Origin: Gemmatimonas groenlandica
GTDB taxonomy: Bacteria > Gemmatimonadota > Gemmatimonadetes > Gemmatimonadales > Gemmatimonadaceae
Direction of reading: 5' to 3'
Length of the DNA stretch: 64,000 nucleotides
NCBI RefSeq assembly: GCF_013004105.1
Contig: NZ_CP053085.1
Coordinates: 2,232,001-2,296,000 of the forward strand
Below are positions 44,320-59,022 of the stretch, one piece after another (position 1 is the stretch's first letter; every line of letters starts with the position of its first letter). Position numbers and translations under genes: made by a program. Under the pieces are notes generated by a model. The model was not told the DNA's origin. It ran no database searches and worked only from the letters and a program-made list of their open reading frames with translations.

Positions 44320-47300
44320 CTACTGCCGAATGCCCGCCGCCGCCGTCGGCACGGTGTAGCTCCACGGCTGACGCACGAGCGGCTTCTTTCGCGGATACAC
44401 CTCGTCGAGCGTGTTGCCATCGAATAAGCGACCGTTGACCATCACCATCGACACGCTGTTGCTGTTGCGGATGTTCACCAGCGGATCACGATCGAGCACG
44501 ATCAGATCGGCAAACTTGCCGGCCTCGAGCGAGCCGATCTCGCTGCCGAGTCCGATCGCCTCGGCGCCCACGATCGTGGCCGCGCGGAGCGCATCGTGCG
44601 TGGAAAGTCCGCCCGACTGAATGAGCCACAGCTCCCAGTGCATGCCCAGTCCCTGCAACTGGCCGTGGCTGCCGACACCTATGCGACCGCCCGCGGCCAC
44701 CGTCTTCGCGATGTCCTCGGCGTGCTGCCACATCGCGTACTCCTCCTTCACGGCGAAGCCGGCCGGCCCGGGGGCGTTGCCGGCACCACGACGACGCACC
44801 TTGCCGTCGAAATCGACCGGATGCGTGAACCGACGAAGCTTGACGTCGTTGATCAGATCTTCCGTCTGGTAAAACCAGCCTTCACCGAACGGACCGCCGT
44901 ACTCGACGATCAGCGTCGGCGAGTTGGTCACCTGCGTCGCCTTGTACCACTCGAAGATGTCTTCGAACTTCGGCGTGATCGGCAGCGTGTGTTCGATGCC
45001 CGGATAGCCGTCGATACCGTGCGTCAGGTTGAGCTTCTGATCGAGGCCGCCTTCGGTGGTCGGCATGATGCCGAGCTCCTTCGCCGCCATGATCAACCAT
45101 TGCCGCTGCTGACGATTACCGCTCATGTACATCTTGAGCGTCTTCGTATCGTAGTACTTGGCGTAGCGCGTCATGATGTCCTTCGCATGTGCGTAGTCAC
45201 GCACCGGCTCCGCGGAAAACACGCCGGGTCCCGTTGTATAAATGCGAGGACCGATCATCTCGCCAGACTCCACGCGATCGGTATACGCCAGGAAGTCGGT
45301 GCTCGAGGTTTGCGGATCGCGCGTCGTCGTCGTGCCGTACGCCAGCGTGGCGAGATACTGCCAGGTTTGCGTATTGTGGATCTGCGGCGTGAGCCACTGG
45401 GGGTGGTAGTGCGTATCCACCATACCCGGCATGATCGTCTTGCCGCTCACGTCGAAGATCTGTGCGCCGGCGGGGATTGTCACACTGCCGCGCGCGCCGA
45501 CGGCCACGATGCGACTGTCACGCACCACGATGTCCGCGTTCTCGATGATCTCCTGGCCTTTCATCGTGATCGCCTTCGCCCCGCGGAATACCGCCACGCC
45601 GCGCGGCAGGTCCCGCGGTGCCATCACCGTGATCTTCATCTCCGCCGGCGTGTAGGCGGGCAGCGGCTTCTTCTTCGTGGTGTCGGTTTTCGCGATCGAG
45701 TCGGCGCGCATGATGCTGTCCTTCACCGACTTCGTGGTGTCGGCCCGCAGGCGCGCCTTCACGCGAGCATCGGCCTTGGCCGAATCTTCGGCCACCTTGG
45801 CGCGATCGAGGTCGTACGACCACACCGAATTGCCGAGGGCCCAGTGCACCACGCGTCCGGTGCTGTTCCACGTTGGGAACTCGCCTCCGATCGTGTTCAG
45901 CTTCTTCACCGGCACTGAGGCTGCGGCCGGCATCGACACGTTGACCGTGGGCGCCACAGCGCCCGCCTGTGCCACCGTGATGGTGTAGAGATCCATGCCT
46001 ACCATCGCCAACGCTTGATCACCACTCGGCGCCATCAGCACCAACGACGCTGGCGGCGGCTGCGGCGGCGTGGGCTCGGCCGGATCGAGATGCGTCTCCG
46101 TTCCCAACGGTCGTGCCGCGCGACCACCGATGTAGTGCCGCGATTCCTTCTCGACGAGTGCGGCGTCGAGGCCCGGCTCCCCACCAGCCCCCGGAGGCAA
46201 CGGACCCGTCACCTTCAGATGCGTCTTGATATCAGTGCCGTCCCACCGAAACGACTGCAGACCAGCGCGACCGTACGCGAAGATGCGCGTCGCGTCCTTC
46301 GTGAAGTGCGGCGTGCCCAATCCGCCGCTCGGCATGATCACCGAGAGCGTGCCGCCGGTGACTGGCAGCCACACAATGTCGGCGGCCGCGGGACCGAAGA
46401 ATGCCGCACCCGCTTCCTGCATCTCGCGCGCCGCCGCCCGCATGGCCACGATGCGATCGCCCGCCGGCGACCACGCGAGATCGGTGTACAAGCCTGCCGA
46501 CGCGGTGAGCGTCTGCGTGGTCCAGCCCTTCTTCGCGTCGAAGTTCGCACGCACGATCTGCCCGCCGGCCGCGTCGTCCCACGTGACCCATGCCAGCGAC
46601 TTGCCATCGGGCGACCACACGGGGCCGAACTCACCGGTGCCGCCCTTGCTGACGCGCGTGGGGGTTCCACCAGGCAGCGCCATCACGTGGACCTTCCCCA
46701 AGGACGAAAACGCCAACTGCTTGCCATCGGGCGACGGCTGAATGTCACGCACTTGACGCGACGTAAACGTGGCCGCCGTATCGATCTTCCACGCGAACTT
46801 CACTTCGGGACCCATCTCGAGCTTCACTTCCGCTTCAAACGGAATCTTGACCGGTGCCGACTTGTCGACGGGCACCCGCCAGATCTCGCCGCCGTACGAC
46901 ACGACCACCGACTTCGAATCGGGCATGAAGCTGAAGCCCGGATACGCATCCATCGGCGCGCGCGATTCGGTATCGTCGCGCTGCACGGGAAACGCCAGCC
47001 ATTCTTCCTGCTGCGTGTCGAGATTGCGAATGCGCAGCCCCGTCTTCGTTTCGAAGCGAGTAGCGTACACGAGATACTTGCCGTCAGGCGACAGCGTAGG
47101 CCGGAAGCCCGAGCCGAAGCGCGTCGTCGTTTGCGACACACGGCCCGTTTCCTTGTCCCACACATACAACTGGAACTGCGCGCCGATGCTGTTGTACTGC
47201 CAATCGCCGGTGCGCGCCGCAAACCACATGTAGCGCGGGTCCTTGCCGAAGGCGGCACCAAGCAGCTTCTGCGTAGCCGGTAGCGTAGGCTCGGTCGTGA

Positions 47301-47856
47301 GCGGCAGACCATTGCCGCCATTCACGTTGTACATCCACAACTTTGCCGCGCCGCCCAGTCCGCTGCTGCGCGAGCTCACCACGTACGCACCATCCGGTGT
47401 CCACTCCGGCGATACGTACATGTTGTTGTTGCCCTTCGTGACCTGCGTCGTGTCCTTGCCGTCGAGCGACTGGATCCACACGTTCTCGCCGCCGGAGCGG
47501 TCGGAAATGAACACGATTCTCTTGCCGTCGGGTGAGAATCGCGGCTGCGCGTCGAAGCCCATGCCGCTCGTCAGGCGTGTGGCTTTGCCGCCAGCGATCG
47601 GCATCGCGTACAGGTCGCCCAACAGATCGAACACGATCTGCGAGCCGTCCGGCGACACGTCGAGCGACAACCAGCTGCCCTTGGTGGTCGTGAAGGTGTG
47701 CGTTCGTGCCGTCTTGAGCGGCAGCGTCTCGGCGCCCGACGCCGGCGCCTCCTGAGAGTGCAACAACTCGCCCGGCAGCGCGCTCGACGCAACCAGCGCC
47801 AATGCCGCGAGCGGGACGAAACGTGAGGTACGGCGGTGCGGCAGGCGATGCGTCAC
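44320..47856 (-). CDS. Exported propeller-amidohydrolase protein
   Basis: Secreted protein of about 1178 residues. After a signal (about 10-33), residues 45-700 are TolB/PD40-type propeller blades (LSLDVSPDGSQIVFDLLG, RFSPDGKRIVFISDRSG, SPDGKYLVYATRF). Residues 750-1150 are an amidohydrolase: HYH metal motif (DTHYHPQW) near 817, the Lys region LKMYMSGNRQQRQW, EHTLP and GSHGQLQGLGMHWE. The fold suggests hydrolysis of a peptide-like or cyclic amide substrate bound or sorted by the propeller. GTG at 47856 is preferred: GGAG lies eight bases upstream and the longer frame overlaps the PAS gene. It is a paralog of the N-terminal two-thirds of the 51396 gene. Confidence 0.85.
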   Translation of the reverse strand: MTHRLPHRRTSRFVPLAALALVASSALPGELLHSQEAPASGAETLPLKTARTHTFTTTKGSWLSLDVSPDGSQIVFDLLGDLYAMPIAGGKATRLTSGMGFDAQPRFSPDGKRIVFISDRSGGENVWIQSLDGKDTTQVTKGNNNMYVSPEWTPDGAYVVSSRSSGLGGAAKLWMYNVNGGNGLPLTTEPTLPATQKLLGAAFGKDPRYMWFAARTGDWQYNSIGAQFQLYVWDKETGRVSQTTTRFGSGFRPTLSPDGKYLVYATRFETKTGLRIRNLDTQQEEWLAFPVQRDDTESRAPMDAYPGFSFMPDSKSVVVSYGGEIWRVPVDKSAPVKIPFEAEVKLEMGPEVKFAWKIDTAATFTSRQVRDIQPSPDGKQLAFSSLGKVHVMALPGGTPTRVSKGGTGEFGPVWSPDGKSLAWVTWDDAAGGQIVRANFDAKKGWTTQTLTASAGLYTDLAWSPAGDRIVAMRAAAREMQEAGAAFFGPAAADIVWLPVTGGTLSVIMPSGGLGTPHFTKDATRIFAYGRAGLQSFRWDGTDIKTHLKVTGPLPPGAGGEPGLDAALVEKESRHYIGGRAARPLGTETHLDPAEPTPPQPPPASLVLMAPSGDQALAMVGMDLYTITVAQAGAVAPTVNVSMPAAASVPVKKLNTIGGEFPTWNSTGRVVHWALGNSVWSYDLDRAKVAEDSAKADARVKARLRADTTKSVKDSIMRADSIAKTDTTKKKPLPAYTPAEMKITVMAPRDLPRGVAVFRGAKAITMKGQEIIENADIVVRDSRIVAVGARGSVTIPAGAQIFDVSGKTIMPGMVDTHYHPQWLTPQIHNTQTWQYLATLAYGTTTTRDPQTSSTDFLAYTDRVESGEMIGPRIYTTGPGVFSAEPVRDYAHAKDIMTRYAKYYDTKTLKMYMSGNRQQRQWLIMAAKELGIMPTTEGGLDQKLNLTHGIDGYPGIEHTLPITPKFEDIFEWYKATQVTNSPTLIVEYGGPFGEGWFYQTEDLINDVKLRRFTHPVDFDGKVRRRGAGNAPGPAGFAVKEEYAMWQHAEDIAKTVAAGGRIGVGSHGQLQGLGMHWELWLIQSGGLSTHDALRAATIVGAEAIGLGSEIGSLEAGKFADLIVLDRDPLVNIRNSNSVSMVMVNGRLFDGNTLDEVYPRKKPLVRQPWSYTVPTAAAGIRQ

Positions 47857-48018
47857 GCGAGCGTCTCCGACGAGAGGAAAAAGGGGGATCGTGAAAGATA
47901 CGCTACCGTCCGGCCCGCCGGACCGTCTCGTGTCAGGCATTCCCCTATGAAGAACGACACAGGAGGGACCGTTACCTCTACCTAACGCCCCATTCGTCCC
48001 TACCTGAGGTGCCTCCCG

Positions 48019-48549
48019 ATGCGACTCGCTCGATCCACCATTACGCCAACCGGCCGCGAACGCGTGTTCGGTGAAGACGAGATCATCGTCAGCAAAACTG
48101 ATGTCACCGGCAAGATCACGTATGCCAACCACGTGTTTCTGCGGGTGTCGGGGTACGCCGAGGAGGACTGCATTGGCGCGCCACACAGCATGATCCGCCA
48201 TCCGGACATGCCACGCGCCATCTTCAAGTTTGCGTGGGATCGCCTGCTCGGCGGGCACGAGATCTTCGCCTACGTGAACAATCTGGCCTGCAACGGCGAT
48301 AACTACTGGGTCCTGGCGCACATGACGCCGTCGCGCGGCTCTGATGGATCGATCATCGGCTTTCACTCGAGCCGCCGCGTGCCAGACCGCGACAAGATCG
48401 CGAAGGTCTTGCCGCTCTATGACGTGCTCCTCGCCGAAGAGCGCCGACAGCTGGACCGACCCGCAGGACTGGCCGCCTCTGCCGCCAAGTTGGACAACGC
48501 GCTGCGAGATCAGAGCAAGACTTACGACGAGTGGATCTGGAGCCTGTAA
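48019..48549 (+). CDS. Stand-alone PAS-domain protein (Aer-like sensor)
   Basis: Soluble protein of 176 residues. A PAS domain like the one in Aer is visible: EDEIIVSKTDVTGKITYANH, VFLRVSGYAEEDCIGAPHSM, IRHPDMPRAIFKFAWDRLL and NYWVLAHMTP. Such domains bind FAD or another cofactor and report redox or energy state. The tail (about 125-176) is helical. GAGGT lies eight bases before the ATG. It is followed two bases later by a soluble chemoreceptor gene, so sensor and signalling parts are split over two proteins. Confidence 0.88.
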   Translation: MRLARSTITPTGRERVFGEDEIIVSKTDVTGKITYANHVFLRVSGYAEEDCIGAPHSMIRHPDMPRAIFKFAWDRLLGGHEIFAYVNNLACNGDNYWVLAHMTPSRGSDGSIIGFHSSRRVPDRDKIAKVLPLYDVLLAEERRQLDRPAGLAASAAKLDNALRDQSKTYDEWIWSL

Positions 48550-48551
48550 TC

Positions 48552-49772
48552 ATGACTACCGCATACACACCGGACGTCGCCACCGACGTCGAAGCGCTCC
48601 AAGCTGAACTGGCGATCTACCGTTCAGGCATCAAGGCCATCACCCTCGTGGCCCAACAGGCCGCCACAGGCAACCTCGAGCCACGCGCCATGGGCATCGA
48701 CCCGGCGGGTCCGCTCGGCGAGCTCGCCCAGTCCGTCAATCACCTGCTCGATCTCTCGGATGCGTTTGTGCGTGAGAGCACCGCATCGTTGCAGCATGCC
48801 TCCGAAGGCAAGTTCTACCGTCGCGTGCTCTCACGCGGACTGCTCGGCACGTATCGTGACGCGGCTGTCGTGATCAACACGGCCAACGATCAGATGGCGC
48901 GCACTGCCGGACAGCTGAAGGATGCCGAGGTGGCGCGCCTGCTGCTGGCCGACACGTTCGAAGTCGCCATCAAGGGCGTCGTGAATGATCTCGCCACCGC
49001 TGCAACCGGCGCACGTTCCACTGCTCAAGGTCTCTCATACGCCGCCGACAGCGCGTCGCAACACAGCACGTCGGTGGCGGCGGCCGCCGAACAAGCGAGT
49101 CGCGGCATCGACTCGGTGGCCGCAGCCGCCGAAGAGATCACGGTGACCGTTACGGAGATCGAACGCCAGGCGCTCGAAACGCAGAAGATCTCGAAGACCG
49201 CCGTGGTCGCCTCGGAATCGACGACCGACAAAGTTCGCACCCTTGCCGAGGCGTCGGCCCAGATCACCCGGGTCGTCAAGTTGATTAACGACATCTCGAG
49301 TCAGACGCGGTTGCTGGCGCTCAATGCGGCCATCGAAGCGGCGCGCGCTGGCGAATTGGGGCGCGGATTTGCGGTAGTTGCCGGAGAGGTCAAGAATCTT
49401 GCTGGCCGCGCCGGCGAAGCGACGGGCGAGATCGAAGCGCAGGTGTTCACGATCCAATCGGCCATCGACGACGTCGTACAGTCGATCGAAGGCATCGGCA
49501 CGACGGTGCGGCGCGTCAACGATCTGTCGTCGGCGGTGTGTGGCGCGGTCGTGGAACAGCGGCAGGCGAACGACTCGGTCAGCCGGAACATTCAGGAAGC
49601 CGCGCTCGGCACGCGTGACGTGGCGCAGAGCATCACCACGGTATCAACGGCCATCCGCGAAACGAGCGATGCGGCGGGTCAGATGCTCGGCGCCGCCGAC
49701 GACCTCGCGCTCATGGCTGATCGCATGCGAGCTGAAGTCGACAAGTTCCTGAACGTGATTCGCACCGGCTGA
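48552..49772 (+). CDS. Soluble methyl-accepting chemotaxis protein
   Basis: Receptor signalling protein of 406 residues without a membrane helix. About 20-135 is a HAMP-like region (LGELAQSVNHLLDL, FYRRVLSRGLLGTYRDAAVVINTAN). The remainder (150-400) is the MCP coiled coil, with the tip INDISSQTRLLALNAAIEAARAGELGRGF binding CheA/CheW. The canonical Asn after QT is Arg here. It probably takes its input from the PAS protein two bases upstream. No CheW/A/Y gene is nearby. Confidence 0.9.
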   Translation: MTTAYTPDVATDVEALQAELAIYRSGIKAITLVAQQAATGNLEPRAMGIDPAGPLGELAQSVNHLLDLSDAFVRESTASLQHASEGKFYRRVLSRGLLGTYRDAAVVINTANDQMARTAGQLKDAEVARLLLADTFEVAIKGVVNDLATAATGARSTAQGLSYAADSASQHSTSVAAAAEQASRGIDSVAAAAEEITVTVTEIERQALETQKISKTAVVASESTTDKVRTLAEASAQITRVVKLINDISSQTRLLALNAAIEAARAGELGRGFAVVAGEVKNLAGRAGEATGEIEAQVFTIQSAIDDVVQSIEGIGTTVRRVNDLSSAVCGAVVEQRQANDSVSRNIQEAALGTRDVAQSITTVSTAIRETSDAAGQMLGAADDLALMADRMRAEVDKFLNVIRTG

Positions 49773-49782
49773 AACGGATTGG

Positions 49783-51399
49783 CTAACGCGCGGCGCGCAC
49801 CCGAGCGAGGAACGTACCCGGGAGCGCGCCGGTCATGCGCCCGTTTTCAAACACCACCGTGCCGTTCACCGCCACCAGTTGGATCCCGTCGGGCCAGTGA
49901 TGCGGCGCGGTGTACGTCGCCCGATCGGCGATCTGTCCGGCGTTGAACACCGTGATATCGGCTCGCTGGCCAACGGCGAGCGTGCCGCGATCGCGAATGC
50001 CGAGCCACTGCGCAGGCAGTGAGGTCATGCGCTGCACCGCCGCTTCGAGGGTGAGCTGTTTCCGCTCGCGCACGTTTGTCCCCAGCACGCGCGGAAAGGA
50101 CCCGTAACTCCGTGGGTGCGGAAAGCCTCGCCCAAAGGTCACGAGATCCCCGTCGGTTTCCAGCATGGTGCCCGGGTGCGTGAGAAAGCGCGCCACATCG
50201 GCGTCGTCCATACCGTGAAAGATCCCGATGAAGCCACCGCGCAATTGCAACGCGATCAATGCCTCGACGGCTGCGTCGAGCGTGACTGGCTGTCCGGCGG
50301 CCACGAGATAGTCGGCCAGCGTCTTCCCCGCGAGCGAGGCATCGAACGACACTTCACGAAACTGAATCGACGACGGCTCAGCGCCAGCCTGCTGCGGAAA
50401 GCGGACGCGCATCTCCTGCACGAGCCGAGCGCGGGTGGCCGGGTCTGCCACACGCTCGGCGAACGCCGGTGCTCCATCGGCCAACGCCCACGGCGGAAAC
50501 ATCAGGTCGGAGTAGGTGCTGTACGCAGTATACGGATACACATCGACGGCCACCTCCATCCCTGCATTTCGTGCGGAATCGAGCAGCGACAGCATGCGCG
50601 TACTCCATCCCCACTGCGCCGCACCGGTCACCTTGAGATGGTTGACCTGCACCGGGATCCGCGCACGGCGCCCCACCTCGAGCGTTTCGTGCAGCGCGTC
50701 CATCACCGCCGGTCCTTCGTCCCGCAGATGGGTCACGTAGATCCCGCCGTAGTGTGATGCCACTTCGGCAAGCGCCGCCACCTCGTCGACATTCGCATAG
50801 GTCGCCGGCACGTACTCCAGTCCAGTGGACAGCCCGAGGGCGCCCTGTGTCATGGCGGAGTCCACCAACGCGCGCATCCACGTCAATTCCGCCGCAGTGG
50901 GCGCGCGGTCGGCGAGACCCATAACGCGCTTCCGGATCCACGTGTGACCGGCGAAGAGCCCCACATTCGGCGCCATCTTCACCTGTGCCCGATACTGATC
51001 CATCGGGAATGGCTGATCCTGCGAATGCAGCGGTGCCAGCACGGTGGTGATCCCCTGCCGCACGAAATTCTCGGCGAGCGCATGATCCGCGAGCGTGACG
51101 AGATGGGCGTGATTGTCCCAGAAGCCCGGCGACACGATCTGTCCGCTCACATCTATCACGCGCGCCACGCCACGCCGCGGAAGCGATGCCCCGATGTCTA
51201 CGATGCGATCGCCGCGGATCGCCACATCCGCTACGCGGCGCGGGGCGCCGGTACCATCGACCACGGTGCCACCGGCGAGCAGCAGATCGTACGTCGGTGC
51301 CGCCGGGCCACAGGCTGTACTCATCGCGGTCAGAAGCGCAACGAGAGTCCGGCCGCGACGCCCGTGGCGCGATGTACCTGCAACGGGTGCGATGCTCAC
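49783..51399 (-). CDS. D-aminoacylase / N-acyl-D-amino-acid deacylase family amidohydrolase
   Basis: Amidohydrolase of 538 residues with a signal or lipoprotein-like start (STACGP, Cys near 30). The family start LLLAGGTVVDGTGAPRRVADV is followed by metal motif DNHAHLV (about 90-95), the GHTWIRKRVMG block, LSTGLEYVPATYA, THLRDEG and VNHLKVTG, all typical for D-aminoacylases. Such enzymes release D-amino acids from N-acyl or peptide derivatives. The GTG at 51399 overlaps the stop of the fused gene (GTGA), so the two are made together. Confidence 0.87.
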   Translation of the reverse strand: MSIAPVAGTSRHGRRGRTLVALLTAMSTACGPAAPTYDLLLAGGTVVDGTGAPRRVADVAIRGDRIVDIGASLPRRGVARVIDVSGQIVSPGFWDNHAHLVTLADHALAENFVRQGITTVLAPLHSQDQPFPMDQYRAQVKMAPNVGLFAGHTWIRKRVMGLADRAPTAAELTWMRALVDSAMTQGALGLSTGLEYVPATYANVDEVAALAEVASHYGGIYVTHLRDEGPAVMDALHETLEVGRRARIPVQVNHLKVTGAAQWGWSTRMLSLLDSARNAGMEVAVDVYPYTAYSTYSDLMFPPWALADGAPAFAERVADPATRARLVQEMRVRFPQQAGAEPSSIQFREVSFDASLAGKTLADYLVAAGQPVTLDAAVEALIALQLRGGFIGIFHGMDDADVARFLTHPGTMLETDGDLVTFGRGFPHPRSYGSFPRVLGTNVRERKQLTLEAAVQRMTSLPAQWLGIRDRGTLAVGQRADITVFNAGQIADRATYTAPHHWPDGIQLVAVNGTVVFENGRMTGALPGTFLARVRAAR

Positions 51400-54300
51400 G
51401 GCTGCTCAGGCGCAATGCGCAATCCCGTCAATTTCCCAAGCGGTCCCAAGGTGACGAGCACGCGGAAACGTTGTGTGCCGAACCAGGCGAAGTACTGTCG
51501 TTCGACATCGTCACCGACCACGCGTCGCGCCAGCAGCTCGAGGCGGGTGAGCGGGCCTTTCCCTTGCACGGTCGCGGTGAGGGCGGCGCGCATGCGCGGG
51601 AAAATGGTTTGTCGCACGACTTCGAAATCATCGAGCGCCAGCGATCCGGCGGCAACGCGCGTGAGGATGGCCTGAACGGCGGCCGTGGCCTGCGGCTCGC
51701 GATCAGGAATGGCGGCAGTGGGTGGCCGCGTGGGCACCAGCGACGAGTCGTAGAGCGCGGCGACCTGCATGGCGAGCGTGGCCGGTGCCATGGCGCGAGC
51801 ATTCGAGAGTACCATGACGGCCAGGTCCTGATCTGGGAAGCGCGTGTACTGTGACACGAATCCCTGCCACGTCCCTCCATGCTCCTGCATCGGATGTCCG
51901 CCGGCCTCGCCCAGGAACCAGCCGAGGGCGTAGGGATAGTCGCGTCCACTGGGAAGACGGCTGGCCGACAGCATCAGCGTCCAGCTTTCCGGGCGCAGCA
52001 CTCGTCGTGTGCTCACCACCTCGTTCCACGCGATGAGGTCGCGCAGCGAGACGAGCATCGATCCATCGGCCGTGGTATTCAGTCGTGGGGCGACCCATGC
52101 GGCATGTTCCCACCCCGAGGCGGTGAGCAGGTAGCCGTGCGCGCGATTCGGCACGACATCGGCTTCGGTGATCACGCGAATCGTGGGCATCCCGGCCGGC
52201 GTGAAGATCCGCTCGCGGAGAAACTCGTCATACGGACGTCCCGTCACGCGCGTCACGATAATGCCCAGCAACACGTAGCCGGTATTCGAATAATTCCAGC
52301 GGGTGCCAGCGGGGAATTCGAGCGGCAACGCCGACGCCATCGCGATCAACTCGGCGTCGCCGTAGTCCTTGCGATAATCAAAACGATCGCTGGTGTAGTC
52401 GGGAACACCGCCGCGGTGACTGAGCAGATGCCGGATGGTGATGGGCTGCCAGCTGGCCGGCACCTCGGGCAGATAACGCCGCACGGAGCTGTCGAGCGCG
52501 ATCTTGTCTTCCTCGACCAGCGACAGCACACCGGCCGCGGTGAACTGTTTGGCCAGCGAACCCGATTGAAACATCGTGGCATCGGTAACGGGCGCACGGT
52601 TCTCCAGTTCGGCCACACCGAAGCCACGGGACACCAGCAGCTCGCCGCGACGCACCACGGCGATCGCGAGTCCGGGAATGCGAGCGGTTTCCATCGTGCG
52701 TCGCACCAGCGTATCCACCGCGGCGGCCGCCGGCAGCATCTCACGGCGCAGCGACCATGGCAGCACGAGTGGTGCCGGGTTCGGCCAAACGCGCTCCAGC
52801 GTGCTGCTGCGATACAGCGTGCCGCCCTTCATGACATACGCGATGGCGCGGCTGTTGCGAATGGACTGCAGCGGGTTGGCGTCGAGTACCACCAGATCGG
52901 CGACCTTCCCGGATTCAATCGACCCCAGGTCGGCGTCGAGTCCGATCGCACGCGCGCCTTCGATGGTAGCCACGCGCAGGACCTCGTGCGGCGACATGCC
53001 GCCATCGGCGAGCAAGCCCATCTCCCAGTGATTGGAGAGCCCCTGCACTTCACCGTGCCCGCCAAGTCCGATGTGGCCACCGGCACGCAGGACAGCCACC
53101 GCACCGGCCGCCGCTTCGCGCTCGTTGAACTCTTCGGGCGGAAACCAGAGCAAGCGCGTGGAGGTTCGCTGAAACAGCGCGCCGTCTGGGAACCAGCGGT
53201 TGATGCGTGGATCCTCGTGCGGCCGTTCCTCGGCGAGCAACCTATAGATCGGCAGCGCGCCACCAAACGCCACCACGAGGGTGGGCGTGTTGGTGATGCC
53301 GGTACGCGACATCAGTTGCACGATGTCATCATGGATGGGTGCTTCCGGGATCGCATGTTCGAGCCCGCTGAAGCCGTCGATGATGTGCGTCAGGTCCTCT
53401 TTGCCGTCGGCGCCGCCTTCCGTCGTGGGCATCAGCCCCAGCTCGCGCGCGGCTTCCACTAGCCACTGTCGCTGCTGACGCGTCCCCGTTTGATACGACT
53501 TGAGGTACGCCGTGCCGTAGTCGTCGCGGTACATTCGCAACAGGCGACGGGCGTCGTCGAGCGACTGGAAGTTGGTGCCGGCGCCAATGCCGGGGCCGGT
53601 GGAGAAGACGCGTGGGCTCGGGACACCGTCGACCTCTACGAGGTTGGCGATGTCGAAGATGTCTGGCGTGACCTGCGGGTCGCGGATGGTGGTGATCCCC
53701 ATCGCGAGGTTGGCGAAGCCGTTGGTGGACTCGGGCTGCAACAGGGCGCCGGCACCGCCCCAATGCGCGTGGATGTCGATGAAGCCCGGCACGATGTACT
53801 TGCCGGTCACGTCGATCACGGTTTTGCCGGCGGGCGTGGTCGTCGCACTCCGCGCGCCCACGCTCGCGATGCGTCCGTCGGTGACGATCACGTCGGCATC
53901 ACGGAGCACTTCGGTGCCGCGCATCGTGATGACCGTCGCGCCGCGGAGCACGATGGTGCCGGTCGTGGTCGCGCGTGGCAGCGACACCTCGAAAGTGCGC
54001 GCCGAGGCGGCCGGCGTTGCCGGCACGGGGAGCGGTGCTCCGAGCGTCGGCGCCGCGGCCGATGGCCGAGGCACCGGTCCGGTGATGCGCACGGGGCCGC
54101 CGGTCGCGGGCACTTCGGCGCGTTGGGCGTCTGGGGGAAGCGCGCCGGGCGGCGCCATGAGCGTGGCGCGGAGTGGCGCGGTGCTGGCGATGATCGTGCG
54201 ACCATCCGGCGTCCACGCAGGGTCAGCCCACCACGCGGGCGCGGTCGTGAGACGCACCGGCGCCTCGCGGCCGTCGGCGCGGGCTTTCCAGAGGGCGCCG

Positions 54301-55559
54301 CCAGTTTCATCCCAGGTCACGAAGGCTACCCACCGGCTGTCGGGGGACCAGGCGGGCATGAATTCCCGGGCGCGCGCCGTGGCGGTGAGACGGCGCGGTG
54401 CGCCGGTGAGGTCGGCAATCCATATGCGCCCCAGTGACGAAAAGGCGACGTATCCGTTGGGCGCGGTGGTCTGCTGCTGCACCCGGCGTGTGCGCACCGG
54501 CCCGGTGGCCAGCCGCTGTGGGAAGTGCAGCGTTGGGGTGACCTCCAGCGCGACATCAGCGGAGAAGGGGATGGCGGTATCACTGCCGTCCTGCACCCCC
54601 AGCCGGTGGATCTTGCCGCCGAACGCCGCGTATAGCCAGCGTCCATCGGGGGAGAACGCGGCGTTGGGGAGCACGTCGCGGGAGGCGCGAGCTTCGAGCT
54701 GATTGCGATCCACCGGGTACGCCAGCCATCGCTCGGCGCCGGTGGCGAGCGTGCGCAGACGGAGGCCGGTTTTCCCTTCGCGGACGGTGCCGTACACGAG
54801 CGTGCTCCCGTCGGGGGAGAGCATGGGCTTCATGGCTGGCAGCCCTTCCACCACCATCGGTTCGGCGGCCCCGCCGCTCACGGGGACGCGCATGAGTGCA
54901 CTCGTAGCGCCGTTGCGGCTGCCATACGGGCGCGGCGTGACCGCGGTGAACAACAGGCTCGCGCCATCGGGGGTGGGCCAGGCGCTATACGGGCCCGGCG
55001 CCGGTGAGGAGACCAGCGGTTGCGCCGGGCCGTTGCCGTTGGGCACGAGTCGGGTACCCTGACCGCTGGCCACGTCGTAGCGCCACAGTTCAGCGGTACG
55101 CGTGACATGCGGATCGGTCACGGTCACGACAATCGACCGCCCATCGGTGGCCCATGCCGGCGACTGCATGCCGGCGCGGGGAAGCTGCGTCACCGCGCGC
55201 GCGTTGCGGCCGTCGGTGGAAGCGATCCAGACATTGTCGGAGCCGGTTTCGTCGCTGATGAAGACGAGCTGCGAGCCGTCGGGAGAAAGCCGTGGTTGCG
55301 ACTGGAAGGCGCGGCCGATGATCAGCGGTTGCGCGCGTCCCCCGTCCACCGACACCCGGTAGATGTCGCCCAGCAACTCGAACACGAGCGCTCGGCCATC
55401 ACGGGTGACATCGAGCGAGACCCAAGTGCCTTCAGTGGTGGTGAAGGCCACCGAACGTGTTGGCGGCGTCGAGGGTGTCTGGGCGGCGACGTTACTGACC
55501 AACAACGTGCTGGCCAGCGTAACGCCGGTGGCGGCGAAGGAGCGACGGCGATGGCTCAT
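51396..55559 (-). CDS. Three-part fusion: TolB-type propeller, amidohydrolase, class C beta-lactamase/peptidase domain
   Basis: Exported protein of about 1387 residues. After the signal (about 3-24, NVAAQ), residues 40-510 form propeller blades (LDVTRDGRALVFELLG, SPDGSQLVFISDETG). Residues 530-920 are the amidohydrolase with HAH (DIHAHWGGAG, near 596), LKSYQTGTRQQRQW, EHAIP and GHGEVQGLSNHWE. Residues 960-1387 are a serine beta-lactamase/D-Ala-D-Ala-peptidase fold: SLAK at about 1001, YSN at about 1088, HGG at about 1226. All three catalytic sets look intact. It is a paralog of the 44320 gene with a C-terminal addition and is coupled to the D-aminoacylase gene. Start ATG 55559 fits the signal; an upstream ATG 55631 is possible. 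Confidence 0.88.
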   Translation of the reverse strand: MSHRRRSFAATGVTLASTLLVSNVAAQTPSTPPTRSVAFTTTEGTWVSLDVTRDGRALVFELLGDIYRVSVDGGRAQPLIIGRAFQSQPRLSPDGSQLVFISDETGSDNVWIASTDGRNARAVTQLPRAGMQSPAWATDGRSIVVTVTDPHVTRTAELWRYDVASGQGTRLVPNGNGPAQPLVSSPAPGPYSAWPTPDGASLLFTAVTPRPYGSRNGATSALMRVPVSGGAAEPMVVEGLPAMKPMLSPDGSTLVYGTVREGKTGLRLRTLATGAERWLAYPVDRNQLEARASRDVLPNAAFSPDGRWLYAAFGGKIHRLGVQDGSDTAIPFSADVALEVTPTLHFPQRLATGPVRTRRVQQQTTAPNGYVAFSSLGRIWIADLTGAPRRLTATARAREFMPAWSPDSRWVAFVTWDETGGALWKARADGREAPVRLTTAPAWWADPAWTPDGRTIIASTAPLRATLMAPPGALPPDAQRAEVPATGGPVRITGPVPRPSAAAPTLGAPLPVPATPAASARTFEVSLPRATTTGTIVLRGATVITMRGTEVLRDADVIVTDGRIASVGARSATTTPAGKTVIDVTGKYIVPGFIDIHAHWGGAGALLQPESTNGFANLAMGITTIRDPQVTPDIFDIANLVEVDGVPSPRVFSTGPGIGAGTNFQSLDDARRLLRMYRDDYGTAYLKSYQTGTRQQRQWLVEAARELGLMPTTEGGADGKEDLTHIIDGFSGLEHAIPEAPIHDDIVQLMSRTGITNTPTLVVAFGGALPIYRLLAEERPHEDPRINRWFPDGALFQRTSTRLLWFPPEEFNEREAAAGAVAVLRAGGHIGLGGHGEVQGLSNHWEMGLLADGGMSPHEVLRVATIEGARAIGLDADLGSIESGKVADLVVLDANPLQSIRNSRAIAYVMKGGTLYRSSTLERVWPNPAPLVLPWSLRREMLPAAAAVDTLVRRTMETARIPGLAIAVVRRGELLVSRGFGVAELENRAPVTDATMFQSGSLAKQFTAAGVLSLVEEDKIALDSSVRRYLPEVPASWQPITIRHLLSHRGGVPDYTSDRFDYRKDYGDAELIAMASALPLEFPAGTRWNYSNTGYVLLGIIVTRVTGRPYDEFLRERIFTPAGMPTIRVITEADVVPNRAHGYLLTASGWEHAAWVAPRLNTTADGSMLVSLRDLIAWNEVVSTRRVLRPESWTLMLSASRLPSGRDYPYALGWFLGEAGGHPMQEHGGTWQGFVSQYTRFPDQDLAVMVLSNARAMAPATLAMQVAALYDSSLVPTRPPTAAIPDREPQATAAVQAILTRVAAGSLALDDFEVVRQTIFPRMRAALTATVQGKGPLTRLELLARRVVGDDVERQYFAWFGTQRFRVLVTLGPLGKLTGLRIAPEQP

Positions 55560-55693: not shown

Positions 55694-56704
55694 CTACGGC
55701 GTGCAACTCCCGCTCGGCGCCGCGCCGGAGAATTGCTGCGCGAAGAACGGCAACACGCGCTGTTCGAACCGTTGTCGCGTGCGATCGGTGTGCCCACCGG
55801 CGAACGCATCGAGCCGATACGGAATCTTCGCGCGCGCCAGTCCGTCGGCGTAGGCGCGCGATCCCAACGGCACACTGGCGATCGCATCATCGAGCCCGTA
55901 CTCGAGGACCACGGCGCAGCTGCGGCGCAGCCCGGAGGCATCTTTCGTAAGTATGTCGACGGGCAGAAACGGCGACCACGCCCCGGCCTTGTCGTACGGC
56001 GCGCCGAACGCGGCGGTCATCGTGCGTGCGAGGCGTACGCTGCCGGCCATCGTTGGTGGCGGCGTGAGTGTGGAGTCACGCAGGTAGCGCCACACCTCAC
56101 TCGTCGGGGCGAGTTCACCCACCATGCCCGTGCAGCACGGGCTCATGGCGTACACCGAGCCGAACACGTCGCTGTGCTTCTGCGCGAGATACAGTGCGCC
56201 GAAGCCGCCCATCGATTGACCGGCCAGTCCACGCGACGCGCGATCGGTGCGCGTGCGATACCGCGCGTCGATGTACTGCACCAGTTCCTGCGACACGAAG
56301 TCGTCCCATTTGCCGAAGGCGGCCGAGTTCACGTAGAAGGTGCCGCCCATCGCGTTGTCGGCGTTCGGCATCACCACCAGGAAGTCGCCGGCGTCCACGC
56401 GCCAGAGACTGTCCATGGTCTTCTGCAGGTCGAGTCCCTGATACGATCCGTCGAGCCACTCGCGGGGATGCGAGGTGAAGCCGTGCAGCAGGTACAACAC
56501 GGGAAAGCGGCGGTTGGGCGTGCGGTCGTAGCTGGGCGGCGTGTAGACGAACACTTCGCGATTCGGCGTGTCGCCGATGGCGTTGCCGGCGATGGCCTTC
56601 GAGCGGATGGTGTCGACGAGAATACGCCCCTGCGCGGTGGCGGTCGCGGGGAGGCAGAGTGCGAGAAACAGGAGGCGTAGGGCGAACGCGAGGGATCGGC
56701 GCAT
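55694..56704 (-). CDS. Exported esterase, alpha/beta hydrolase (esterase-D / feruloyl-esterase-like)
   Basis: Secreted alpha/beta hydrolase of 336 residues (signal about 1-25, ATAQ). The oxyanion segment is LYLLHGFTSHPREW and the nucleophile Ser 164 is in LAGQSMGGFGAL. An Asp (LEYGLDDA) and a His (FAGGHTDRT) complete the triad. Similar proteins act on acyl sugars or lipid esters. It lies 134 bases from the fused amidohydrolase start, on the same strand, so possibly co-transcribed. Confidence 0.85.
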   Translation of the reverse strand: MRRSLAFALRLLFLALCLPATATAQGRILVDTIRSKAIAGNAIGDTPNREVFVYTPPSYDRTPNRRFPVLYLLHGFTSHPREWLDGSYQGLDLQKTMDSLWRVDAGDFLVVMPNADNAMGGTFYVNSAAFGKWDDFVSQELVQYIDARYRTRTDRASRGLAGQSMGGFGALYLAQKHSDVFGSVYAMSPCCTGMVGELAPTSEVWRYLRDSTLTPPPTMAGSVRLARTMTAAFGAPYDKAGAWSPFLPVDILTKDASGLRRSCAVVLEYGLDDAIASVPLGSRAYADGLARAKIPYRLDAFAGGHTDRTRQRFEQRVLPFFAQQFSGAAPSGSCTP

Positions 56705-56713
56705 GCGGCTATT

Positions 56714-57541
56714 CTAGCGCGATGGCGCTGGATTGGCCGTGATGGTCATCATCCCCGGCCCCTCGACCGCGCGCGAACACAATGCTCTAGACGAGTTCGC
56801 AAGTCCTGCGGGTGGCACGTCCGGCTTGGAGAGTCGGCGCGGCTGACGCGGGTTGTTCTCGACTTGAAACGCGACGGCCAGACAGACTTGTCGCCGCACG
56901 GGGACGTTGCCCACGTGCGAGACGCGGAATTTCCCGACCTCTAGCCACCGTTCGACCGAATGCACGAAGTCCGCGTGTGTGCCTGCAAACAGACGCAGAC
57001 TGTTCTTTTCGAGCCGGCCAATCGTGTCGACCACGAACATGGCGAACACAGAACCTCGCTCATCAATCGCTCGCCGATTGTCCGGGAACGCAGGGCCCCG
57101 AGCACCGACCGGCATAATGGCTGCCGAGTCCACATCCACATCGACGTACGGCCGCGTATCCGAGTCGCGCTGAATCGGCAACGGGAAATCCTTCGGCGCC
57201 GGCGCCACGCCCGCTTCCACTTCGACCGGTACGCGATGCACGCGCGGCGCGGTCCGCCCGAACGAGAGTACGTAGCTCCCCGCACTCGGCGCGACCACGG
57301 TGAACTGCCCTTTGGTATCGGTGGTCGACTCGTCGAGCGCTACGAGGCCGGTGTCGGACATCTGCACGAGCCGCACGACGAAGTCGACGGCCGGCTTCAT
57401 CGTGCGGTCGTCGGTCACGCGGCCGGCGACGACCTGGGCCGGGAGCGCGTGGGCGGACAGCGCGCCGAACGCGGCACCCAGGCTGGCGACGGCGAGCCGC
57501 CGCGATTCGGGACGCAATGATTGGATGCGGCGGAAGGGCAT
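56714..57541 (-). CDS. Secreted regulatory-domain protein with TonB_C-like end (paralog 1)
   Basis: Exported protein of 275 residues (signal about 14-36, LPAQ). An N-terminal carboxypeptidase-regulatory-like domain (VVAGRVTDDRTMKPAVDFVV, GQFTVVAPSAGSYVLSFG) lies at about 36-120. A TonB_C-like segment (about 160-225; VFAMFVVDTIGRLEKNSLRLF, HSVERWLEVGKFR) follows, and then an Ala/Pro-rich tail. It is nearly identical over 311 bases to the gene at 58231 and is on the same strand. The two flank a small secreted protein gene. Confidence 0.78.
   Translation of the reverse strand: MPFRRIQSLRPESRRLAVASLGAAFGALSAHALPAQVVAGRVTDDRTMKPAVDFVVRLVQMSDTGLVALDESTTDTKGQFTVVAPSAGSYVLSFGRTAPRVHRVPVEVEAGVAPAPKDFPLPIQRDSDTRPYVDVDVDSAAIMPVGARGPAFPDNRRAIDERGSVFAMFVVDTIGRLEKNSLRLFAGTHADFVHSVERWLEVGKFRVSHVGNVPVRRQVCLAVAFQVENNPRQPRRLSKPDVPPAGLANSSRALCSRAVEGPGMMTITANPAPSR
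57126..57436. repeat. 311-bp duplicated segment, copy 1
   Basis: Matches 58631-58941 without gaps, with about 17 mismatches by my count (about 95% identical). It covers the regulatory-like domain and the start of the region after it in both paralogs. Outside this block the two genes fall to clearly lower similarity. Confidence 0.85.
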
Positions 57542-57745
57542 GCGAGAACGATAGCGCGTTCGCCGGCGTGTCGCGAACGGCCACGCTGCCTTCGCGCGAA
57601 CGGCCAGCTCGTGATGGATACGGTTCGCGCGGTGATAAACGTGCCTCCGGGCACGGCGTTAATATGGATTCAAGCGCACGTCGCCCGTGAGTCCGAAGCG
57701 GCGCGTCGTCGCAGACCCCACGCCACTCACGCTCACGAAACTCCC

Positions 57746-58234
57746 ATGACCGGATTGGATCTTCGAGCGCTTGTGCTCTTTATCGGCGTGGCGGTGGCGC
57801 CGGCGGGAGCGGCCATGCACGCGACGAAAGCGCTCCTGCCCACGCGCGTCTCGCCCAGCGACCCCTGTTCCACGCACCCCCAGTTCCATGCGTCCACGCT
57901 TTCGCGGATTCAGGAGCGGTTCGATCCGACGAACACCGACACGGCAAATGTGAACTTCCTCAGCCGGTTCGGCCTGACGGGACTGCGTGCGGCGAACGTG
58001 GTCGCCGTGACCGACTCGAGCACGTGCGCGGCGGCCATTGTCGCCTACGCGAACTTGAGCGAACCGGCCGACTCGCGGAAGCGCCAGGCACTTCGCACGC
58101 AACTGCCTGGCATTGTGGTCTTTCGCCTCTCGCCGAATCGCTACCTGCTCAACGCCGGCATGAGTAATCCGTACTGGTTCTATGAGATGTTCGTGACCGA
58201 CTCGAACTTCGCGTACGTGAGCAACTACTTCTAG
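57746..58234 (+). CDS. Small secreted protein, function unknown
   Basis: Protein of 162 residues with an N-terminal signal (about 5-23, APAGAAMHA). The mature part (about 30-162) has two Cys (SDPCSTHP and SSTCAAAIVAYA) and ends YVSNYF. No family recognised. It lies between, and opposite in direction to, the two duplicated paralogs. Stop codons of this gene and the convergent paralog share CTAG. ATG at 57746 fits the signal; the longer frame is unlikely. Confidence 0.6.
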   Translation: MTGLDLRALVLFIGVAVAPAGAAMHATKALLPTRVSPSDPCSTHPQFHASTLSRIQERFDPTNTDTANVNFLSRFGLTGLRAANVVAVTDSSTCAAAIVAYANLSEPADSRKRQALRTQLPGIVVFRLSPNRYLLNAGMSNPYWFYEMFVTDSNFAYVSNYF

Positions 58235-59022
58235 CGGAGCGTAAAGACGGTCATGGTCGCGTTGCTCTCGAGGGCACGCGCACAGAGCTCTCTGGCAGAG
58301 TTGGAGAGCCCCGCCGCCGGGATGCGTGGCGGCGTACTGGCGACCACTCGCCGTCCTGCGGTGCTGGGCCGGAAGACCAGCGGGAGGCACACATGCCGGC
58401 GGACCAGCACACCGCCAATGGTGGGCGGTCGAAACCATGCCTTACTCATCCACTCGTTCACAGCATTGGTAAAGTCGGCGTGCGTCCCGGAGAAGAGACG
58501 CACTGTGTTCTTCTCAACGTGTCCCGTCGTGTCCACCACGAACATGGCGAACAACGAGCCCCCCTCCATCGCTTCCCGCTTGGCCTGCGGATACATAATG
58601 CCGGCGGAACCGCGCTGCAGCAGAAGTACGGAGTCCACATCCACATCCACGTACGGCCGCGTATCCGACTCGCGCTGAATCGGCAACGGGAAATCCTTCG
58701 GCGCCGGCGCGACTCCCGCTGCCACTTCGACCGGTACGCGATGCACGCGCGGCGCGGTCCGCCCGAACGACAGCACGTAGCTCCCCGCACTCGGCGCGAC
58801 CACGGTGAACTGCCCTTTGGTATCGGTGGTCGCTTCGTCGAGCGCCACCAGGCCGGTGTCCGCCATTTGCACGAGGCGCACGACGTAGTCGACGGCCGGC
58901 TTCATCGTGCGGTCGTCGGTCACGCGGCCGGCGATGACCTGAGCGGAGAGCCTGTCGGGGAATGCGGACGCGGCCGTAATCAACAATGCCGCCGCGAGAA
59001 CGGAATAGGGCCAATATTTCAT
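58231..59022 (-). CDS. Secreted regulatory-domain protein with TonB_C-like end (paralog 2)
   Basis: Exported protein of 263 residues (signal about 1-27, LSAQ) and a paralog of the 56714 gene. It has the same regulatory-like domain (VIAGRVTDDRTMKPAVDYVV) and a TonB_C-like part (about 155-220; LFAMFVVDTTGHVEKNTVRLF, NEWMSKAWFRPPT). The C-terminal tail differs from its twin. It is divergent from psd, 23 bases away. Function unknown; perhaps it binds a periplasmic partner of a TonB-like system. Confidence 0.78.
   Translation of the reverse strand: MKYWPYSVLAAALLITAASAFPDRLSAQVIAGRVTDDRTMKPAVDYVVRLVQMADTGLVALDEATTDTKGQFTVVAPSAGSYVLSFGRTAPRVHRVPVEVAAGVAPAPKDFPLPIQRESDTRPYVDVDVDSVLLLQRGSAGIMYPQAKREAMEGGSLFAMFVVDTTGHVEKNTVRLFSGTHADFTNAVNEWMSKAWFRPPTIGGVLVRRHVCLPLVFRPSTAGRRVVASTPPRIPAAGLSNSARELCARALESNATMTVFTLR
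58631..58941. repeat. 311-bp duplicated segment, copy 2
   Basis: Counterpart of 57126-57436, gapless, with about 17 mismatches. Both copies have the same orientation and lie within same-strand paralogous genes about 1.5 kb apart. Confidence 0.85.

Follow-up and report, generated by a model that had tools for sequence, protein, structure and literature searches.

Peptides containing D-amino acids constitute a slowly degraded fraction of organic matter. Among the described enzymes closest to the system reported here are the amidohydrolases of COG1228 (Cc2672/3mtw, ochratoxinase, metalloBSH), which have a subtype I metal site with an HxH motif on β-strand 1, a Lys on β-4, His residues on β-5 and β-6 and an Asp on β-8. 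To our knowledge, this β-8 Asp is retained almost throughout the amidohydrolase superfamily. In ochratoxinase the ligands are H111, H113, K246, H287, H307 and D378, i.e. HxH, carboxylated Lys, His, His and Asp (PMC11342369), and in metalloBSH all six ligands are required, each ligand mutant being inactive (PMC13081902). The D-peptidases of MEROPS family S12, i.e. Pab87/CubicO, alkaline D-peptidase, D-aminopeptidase and R61, carry SxxK, YxN and HxG boxes in a common fold; Pab87 is D-stereospecific, and in Pyrococcus abyssi its gene has a D-aminoacylase gene and a dipeptide ABC transporter in its vicinity (PMC2651629). Propeller-gated peptidases (S9, tricorn) place a propeller before the catalytic domain. 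Subtype V D-aminoacylases and OngB show the amidohydrolase fold with HxH, two later His residues, a catalytic Asp and a Cys ligand within an NCG segment (PMC12017989).

The window, i.e. the whole stretch of 64,000 nucleotides of Gemmatimonas groenlandica DNA analysed here, encodes a chain joining features of the first three of these systems. It shares the fold, HxH, Lys and β-6 His with the COG1228 enzymes but has Glu and His in place of the β-5 His and the β-8 Asp, an N-terminal propeller and a C-terminal S12 domain. S9 peptidases and tricorn are both among the fold matches, whereas the catalytic domain following it here is a metal amidohydrolase barrel and not an α/β or tricorn serine fold. 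Unlike the S12 D-peptidases, of which it has the boxes and the fold, the putative S12 hydrolase domain resides behind a propeller-amidohydrolase and has its own C-terminal domain outside Pfam. The fused architecture combines known families in a new way, and our searches of the open-access literature turned up neither this fusion nor any propeller-amidohydrolase enzyme.

Architecture and distribution of the fused gene

The fused gene (51396..55559; this gene, its partner and the unfused paralogue are all on the minus strand) runs from 55559 to 51396 as a single unbroken ORF with an ATG start, encoding 1387 amino acids. The three-part secreted fusion proposed in the sequence-only reading is real, Pfam placing PD40, Amidohydro_1 and Beta-lactamase in this order in one frame, with export being predicted from a probable signal peptide at residues 1-27 (MSHRRRSF...NVAAQ; 55479..55559). 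The PD40/TolB-like β-propeller comprises residues 28-495 (54075..55478), as judged from Pfam PD40 (7.6e-20; 70.8 bits versus a cut-off of 20.9), the NCBIfam TolB propeller and an all-β AlphaFold model. It is followed by a COG1228-like amidohydrolase domain (residues 517-940; 52740..54011), in which Amidohydro_1 matches residues 588-914 (2e-17) and for which Foldseek returned 3mtw, 9kov and 3be7 as best matches, and by the S12 β-lactamase/D,D-peptidase domain (residues 948-1257; 51789..52718), matching positions 1-313 of 329 of PF00144 (2.8e-70) and, in Foldseek, 2qmi, 7spn, R61 and others. A fourth, C-terminal domain (residues 1262-1387; 51399..51776), absent from the sequence-only reading, consists of helices and four β-strands and matches no Pfam family; it also trails the S12 domain in stand-alone serine hydrolase matches from Paracoccus and Novosphingobium and is therefore regarded as part of the S12 module. 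The domain assignments are backed by Foldseek and the domains are confidently modelled, with a mean AlphaFold pLDDT of 82.8 for barrel plus S12 and of 77.9 for propeller plus barrel. The relative placement is fairly well defined for propeller and barrel (pTM 0.81) and uncertain for the S12 domain relative to the barrel (pTM 0.54).

The reading frame is free of stops and frameshifts between residues 920 and 980. A genome search for the same fusion, called for in the sequence-only reading and conducted with a junction query of 131 residues, yielded matches across the whole junction in 27 of 395 Gemmatimonadota genomes (identity 47-100%), distributed over seven genera of the family of the window and, within the same class, two genera of a second family. 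In most of the 27, propeller, barrel, S12 and C-terminal domain can be placed in one frame, the remaining ones being cut by a contig end. In comparison with three relatives, dN/dS is 0.11-0.23 over the gene as a whole and 0.12-0.34 over residues 920-980, showing the junction to be under purifying selection. Conservation in 27 genomes together with low dN/dS rules out a frameshift or assembly artefact, and the fused loci in other genomes exclude that the parts are always separate genes.

In the barrel tree as well as in the S12 tree the fused sequences group together with matching main sub-branches; long-branched canonical outgroups lie just outside the fused group in the barrel tree, and the unlabelled rows inside the fused groups (L029; L093, L094, L112) represent fused genes truncated at contig ends. 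As the fused sequences form one clade in both domain trees, we read this as a single origin of the fusion. The fusion was not found in the close relatives G001, G004, G008 and G055 and is therefore an accessory gene. A scan of genome contigs returned close relatives only, and none of the plasmid records from other phyla reaches 80% coverage of the fused protein. As a side observation, a public contig titled Candidatus Kuenenia (L023) is apparently identical to contig 122 of a genome in the genus of the window (G010) and probably represents a mislabelled bin.

The S12 domain and its partner gene

The S12 motifs read as intact from the sequence were borne out, with SLAK at residues 1001-1004 (catalytic Ser1001 and Lys1004; 52548..52559), YSN at 1090-1092 (catalytic Tyr1090; 52284..52292) and HGG, the HxG box, at 1227-1229 (51873..51881). 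Every one of the 24 complete fused domains retains SxxK, YxN and HxG/KTG boxes. Solved S12 matches by PDB sequence and fold include Pab87, alkaline D-peptidase, dHy1, D-aminopeptidase, ClbP, SurE and R61 DD-peptidase; many of these nearest relatives are D-stereospecific, and AmpC-type β-lactamases score far lower. By similarity, the domain is a putative D-stereospecific peptidase.

The next gene (49783..51399), overlapping the fused gene by GTGA at 51396..51399 as noted before, encodes a 538-residue amidohydrolase with a lipobox-like N-terminus. The description of this neighbour as D-aminoacylase-type holds for its overall similarity (Pfam Amidohydro_3; PDB D-aminoacylase, 3.6e-73) and not for its metal site: it shares the fold, HxH, two later His residues (His224 and His254) and the invariant catalytic Asp416 with subtype V D-aminoacylases and OngB, but the NCG segment with the Cys zinc ligand of the Cys/His/His site defining D-aminoacylases is absent, and there is an invariant His125 instead. 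The partner adjoins the fusion in 17/17 best-covered loci; the two genes overlap in the same direction in one branch, converge in most of another, and are co-directional but separated by a gap in G198. It is the sole neighbour common to all loci compared, any other flanking gene being common to at most two other loci, same-family members aside. In G148, no partner is present within the 1.7 kb visible downstream of the fusion; elsewhere in this genome a partner-like gene (52%) is in one frame with an α/β hydrolase (Abhydrolase_1; L137 8472-11360). Taken together, there is strong evidence for fusion and partner being a two-gene unit.

Several further arrangements were observed around these genes. 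In G019 (L086 7813-10699) a partner orthologue (54%) directly follows an ordinary COG1228 amidohydrolase that has neither a propeller nor an S12 domain. Within the window, a PAS-domain gene overlaps an MCP-type chemoreceptor gene (48019-49772), a pair kept by close relatives between partner and unfused propeller-amidohydrolase, and at positions 56714-59022 there are two secreted proteins that are related to each other (about 65% alike); both have CarboxypepD_reg-like starts, and one has a weakly TonB_C-like end.

The modules also occur in other combinations. In G118 (L131 5772-10779) the partner sequence runs on directly from the end of a fused-type propeller-amidohydrolase without S12 domain, a case weakened by the frameshift that this assembly has within the barrel, and G252 (L138 3867-6683) encodes a secreted protein of 938 residues composed of a partner-like amidohydrolase (36%), an S12 domain (52%) and the C-terminal domain (34%). 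Together with the fusion, three modules are recombined pairwise, a type of evidence usually taken for a common pathway. Beyond Gemmatimonadota, two Deinococcus plasmids, one from Deinococcus sp. QL22 and one from D. ficus, have a D-aminoacylase-type gene that overlaps the gene of a serine hydrolase; an ABC transporter precedes the pair and a MurR/RpiR regulator follows it, and the QL22 locus additionally contains genes of the enolase superfamily and of the GNAT type. In Croceicoccus marinus, the S12 hydrolase and amidohydrolase genes stand at the end of a row that starts with a peptide transporter and continues with a TonB receptor, a DUF1611 gene and one gene lacking a Pfam match. Identities to the window are 35-36% for the partners and 25-30% for the S12 domains, and these loci are therefore analogous and not orthologous. 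DUF1611, of which the genome of the window has two genes, we take to be DgcN of D-glutamate catabolism. The DgcN-DgcA pathway is mentioned in PMC10845958. The genes scanned beside the fusion in the window included no recognisable peptide transporter or D-amino-acid gene.

An alternative that we regard as unlikely, though deserving consideration, is a general exported scavenger of peptides or esters lacking D-specificity, in which the S12 domain would act as an esterase or as a broad hydrolase, with the amidohydrolases cutting L-dipeptides or N-acyl-amino acids. The S12 family also includes esterases, the best PDB sequence match of the domain being esterase IS11, the carboxypeptidase and dipeptidase relatives of the metal domain work on L-residues, and an esterase-family gene (55694-56704) lies next door in the window. 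This gene is, however, not a common neighbour of the fusion and is ruled out as a component of the system, and both the many D-stereospecific S12 matches and the D-aminoacylase-like partner argue against such a scavenger.

The metal site of the amidohydrolase domain

The HAH site of the amidohydrolase had been described as intact, which is true of this motif but incomplete, the noncanonical nature of the remainder of the metal site having gone unnoticed. The metal ligands H597 and H599 within DIHAH (HAH 597-599; 53763..53777), K687 as counterpart of the carboxylated bridging lysine (53499..53501; invariant in 22/22 fused sequences) and the β-6 ligand H735 (LEHA; 53355..53357) fit the HxH, Lys and His of subtype I. 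The β-5 His and the β-8 Asp, by contrast, appear to be replaced in the alignment, where E714 (53418..53420; TTE714GG) is found at or beside the position of the β-5 His, as defined by the ligand set of PMC11342369, and H835 (53055..53057; GGHGE, i.e. GGH835G) at that of the Asp. The placement of E714 at the ligand position is possibly off by one residue, since the β-5/β-6 loop differs in length by one. Closest folds of the barrel are the Lys/Arg carboxypeptidase 3mtw, the Arg carboxypeptidase 3be7 and the Xaa-Pro dipeptidase 2qs8.

E714, H835, H844 and E846 are invariant in all 22 fused sequences, and of the 29 other sequences 25 retain E714 together with H835, the four exceptions being outgroup amidohydrolases. 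The unfused propeller-amidohydrolase expected at 44320 is present (44320..47940; Pfam) and has the same remodelled site, as have members from Novosphingobium and Persicobacter; propeller-amidohydrolases of Streptomyces and of a haloarchaeon have the ordinary Asp. As judged from these alignments, the remodelled site is a trait of the entire remodelled propeller-amidohydrolase family sampled, beyond the fusion alone, and it is the least expected part of the system.

The family-wide replacement of β-8 Asp and β-5 His, together with the inactivity of every ligand mutant of a relative (PMC13081902), could indicate a catalytically dead or solely ligand-binding metal domain, with the S12 domain doing the chemistry and propeller and barrel forming a docking scaffold. 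We consider this improbable, since decay would not preserve the full polar set: HxH, Lys, Glu, the EH pair, His835, His844 and Glu846 are invariant in the 22 fused and nearly all unfused sequences, and the metal domain shows a dN/dS as low as that of the S12 domain. A tentative proposal, somewhat better placed but still short of an even chance, is that the propeller-amidohydrolases constitute a new metal-site subtype, active with a β-5 Glu and a β-8 His and distributed over several phyla, to which the fusion branch would add a serine D-peptidase in one chain.

Proposed function

What is established at sequence level, i.e. the fusion, its conservation, the intact S12 motifs, the conserved but altered amidohydrolase site and the near-constant partner, is consistent with a model according to which fusion and partner form an exported two-protein system digesting D-amino-acid peptides within the cell envelope or extracellularly, the substrates most likely being muropeptides or similar wall debris. 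We assign this reading of substrate and activity a probability of roughly 55%. It is supported by the S12 matches to D-peptidases, the peptidase-like barrel folds, the near-constant partner, the module swaps and the analogous loci outside the phylum, and it is weakened by the esterases within S12, the replaced ligands, the partner lacking the Cys, the lack of a recognised peptide transporter or D-amino-acid gene among the genes scanned beside the fusion in the window, and the G148 fusion without partner in the visible 1.7 kb. The observations of the sequence-only reading are thereby confirmed and its interpretation is partly supported: a joint attack on D-amino-acid peptides is plausible in view of the S12 relatives and the gene pairs with transporters, while peptide antibiotics as substrates found no specific support.

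In the proposed sequence of events, the propeller would admit or hold small peptides before the amidohydrolase active site, comparable to propeller-gated peptidases, and the S12 domain would cleave beside a D-residue via acylation of Ser1001. The metal domain might then trim a terminal residue from the S12 product like its carboxypeptidase and dipeptidase relatives, and the partner might free the final N-acyl-D-amino acid or D-residue. As a result of fusion and joint export, the intermediates would stay near each other.

Peptidoglycan remodelling or recycling of the own wall by a D,D-carboxypeptidase or endopeptidase, serving no nutritional purpose, would agree with export and with the R61 DD-peptidase and FmtA-like fold matches, but the patchy presence described above, with 27/395 genomes and absence from four close relatives, disfavours a housekeeping role and renders it quite improbable. 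Inactivation of antibiotics by a β-lactamase or peptide-antibiotic hydrolase, conceivable for an exported β-lactamase fold with SxxK and YxN, is highly improbable, the domain having HGG in place of KTG and reaching 84.6 bits versus a cut-off of 415 for class C (AmpC-type) β-lactamases, and partner and analogous loci indicating peptide catabolism.

For digestion of D-amino-acid peptides, the natural fusion and its near-constant partner provide a small, testable enzyme set. If the remodelled site is active, the β-8 Asp would be replaceable and many 'amidohydrolase family protein' annotations would have to be reread.
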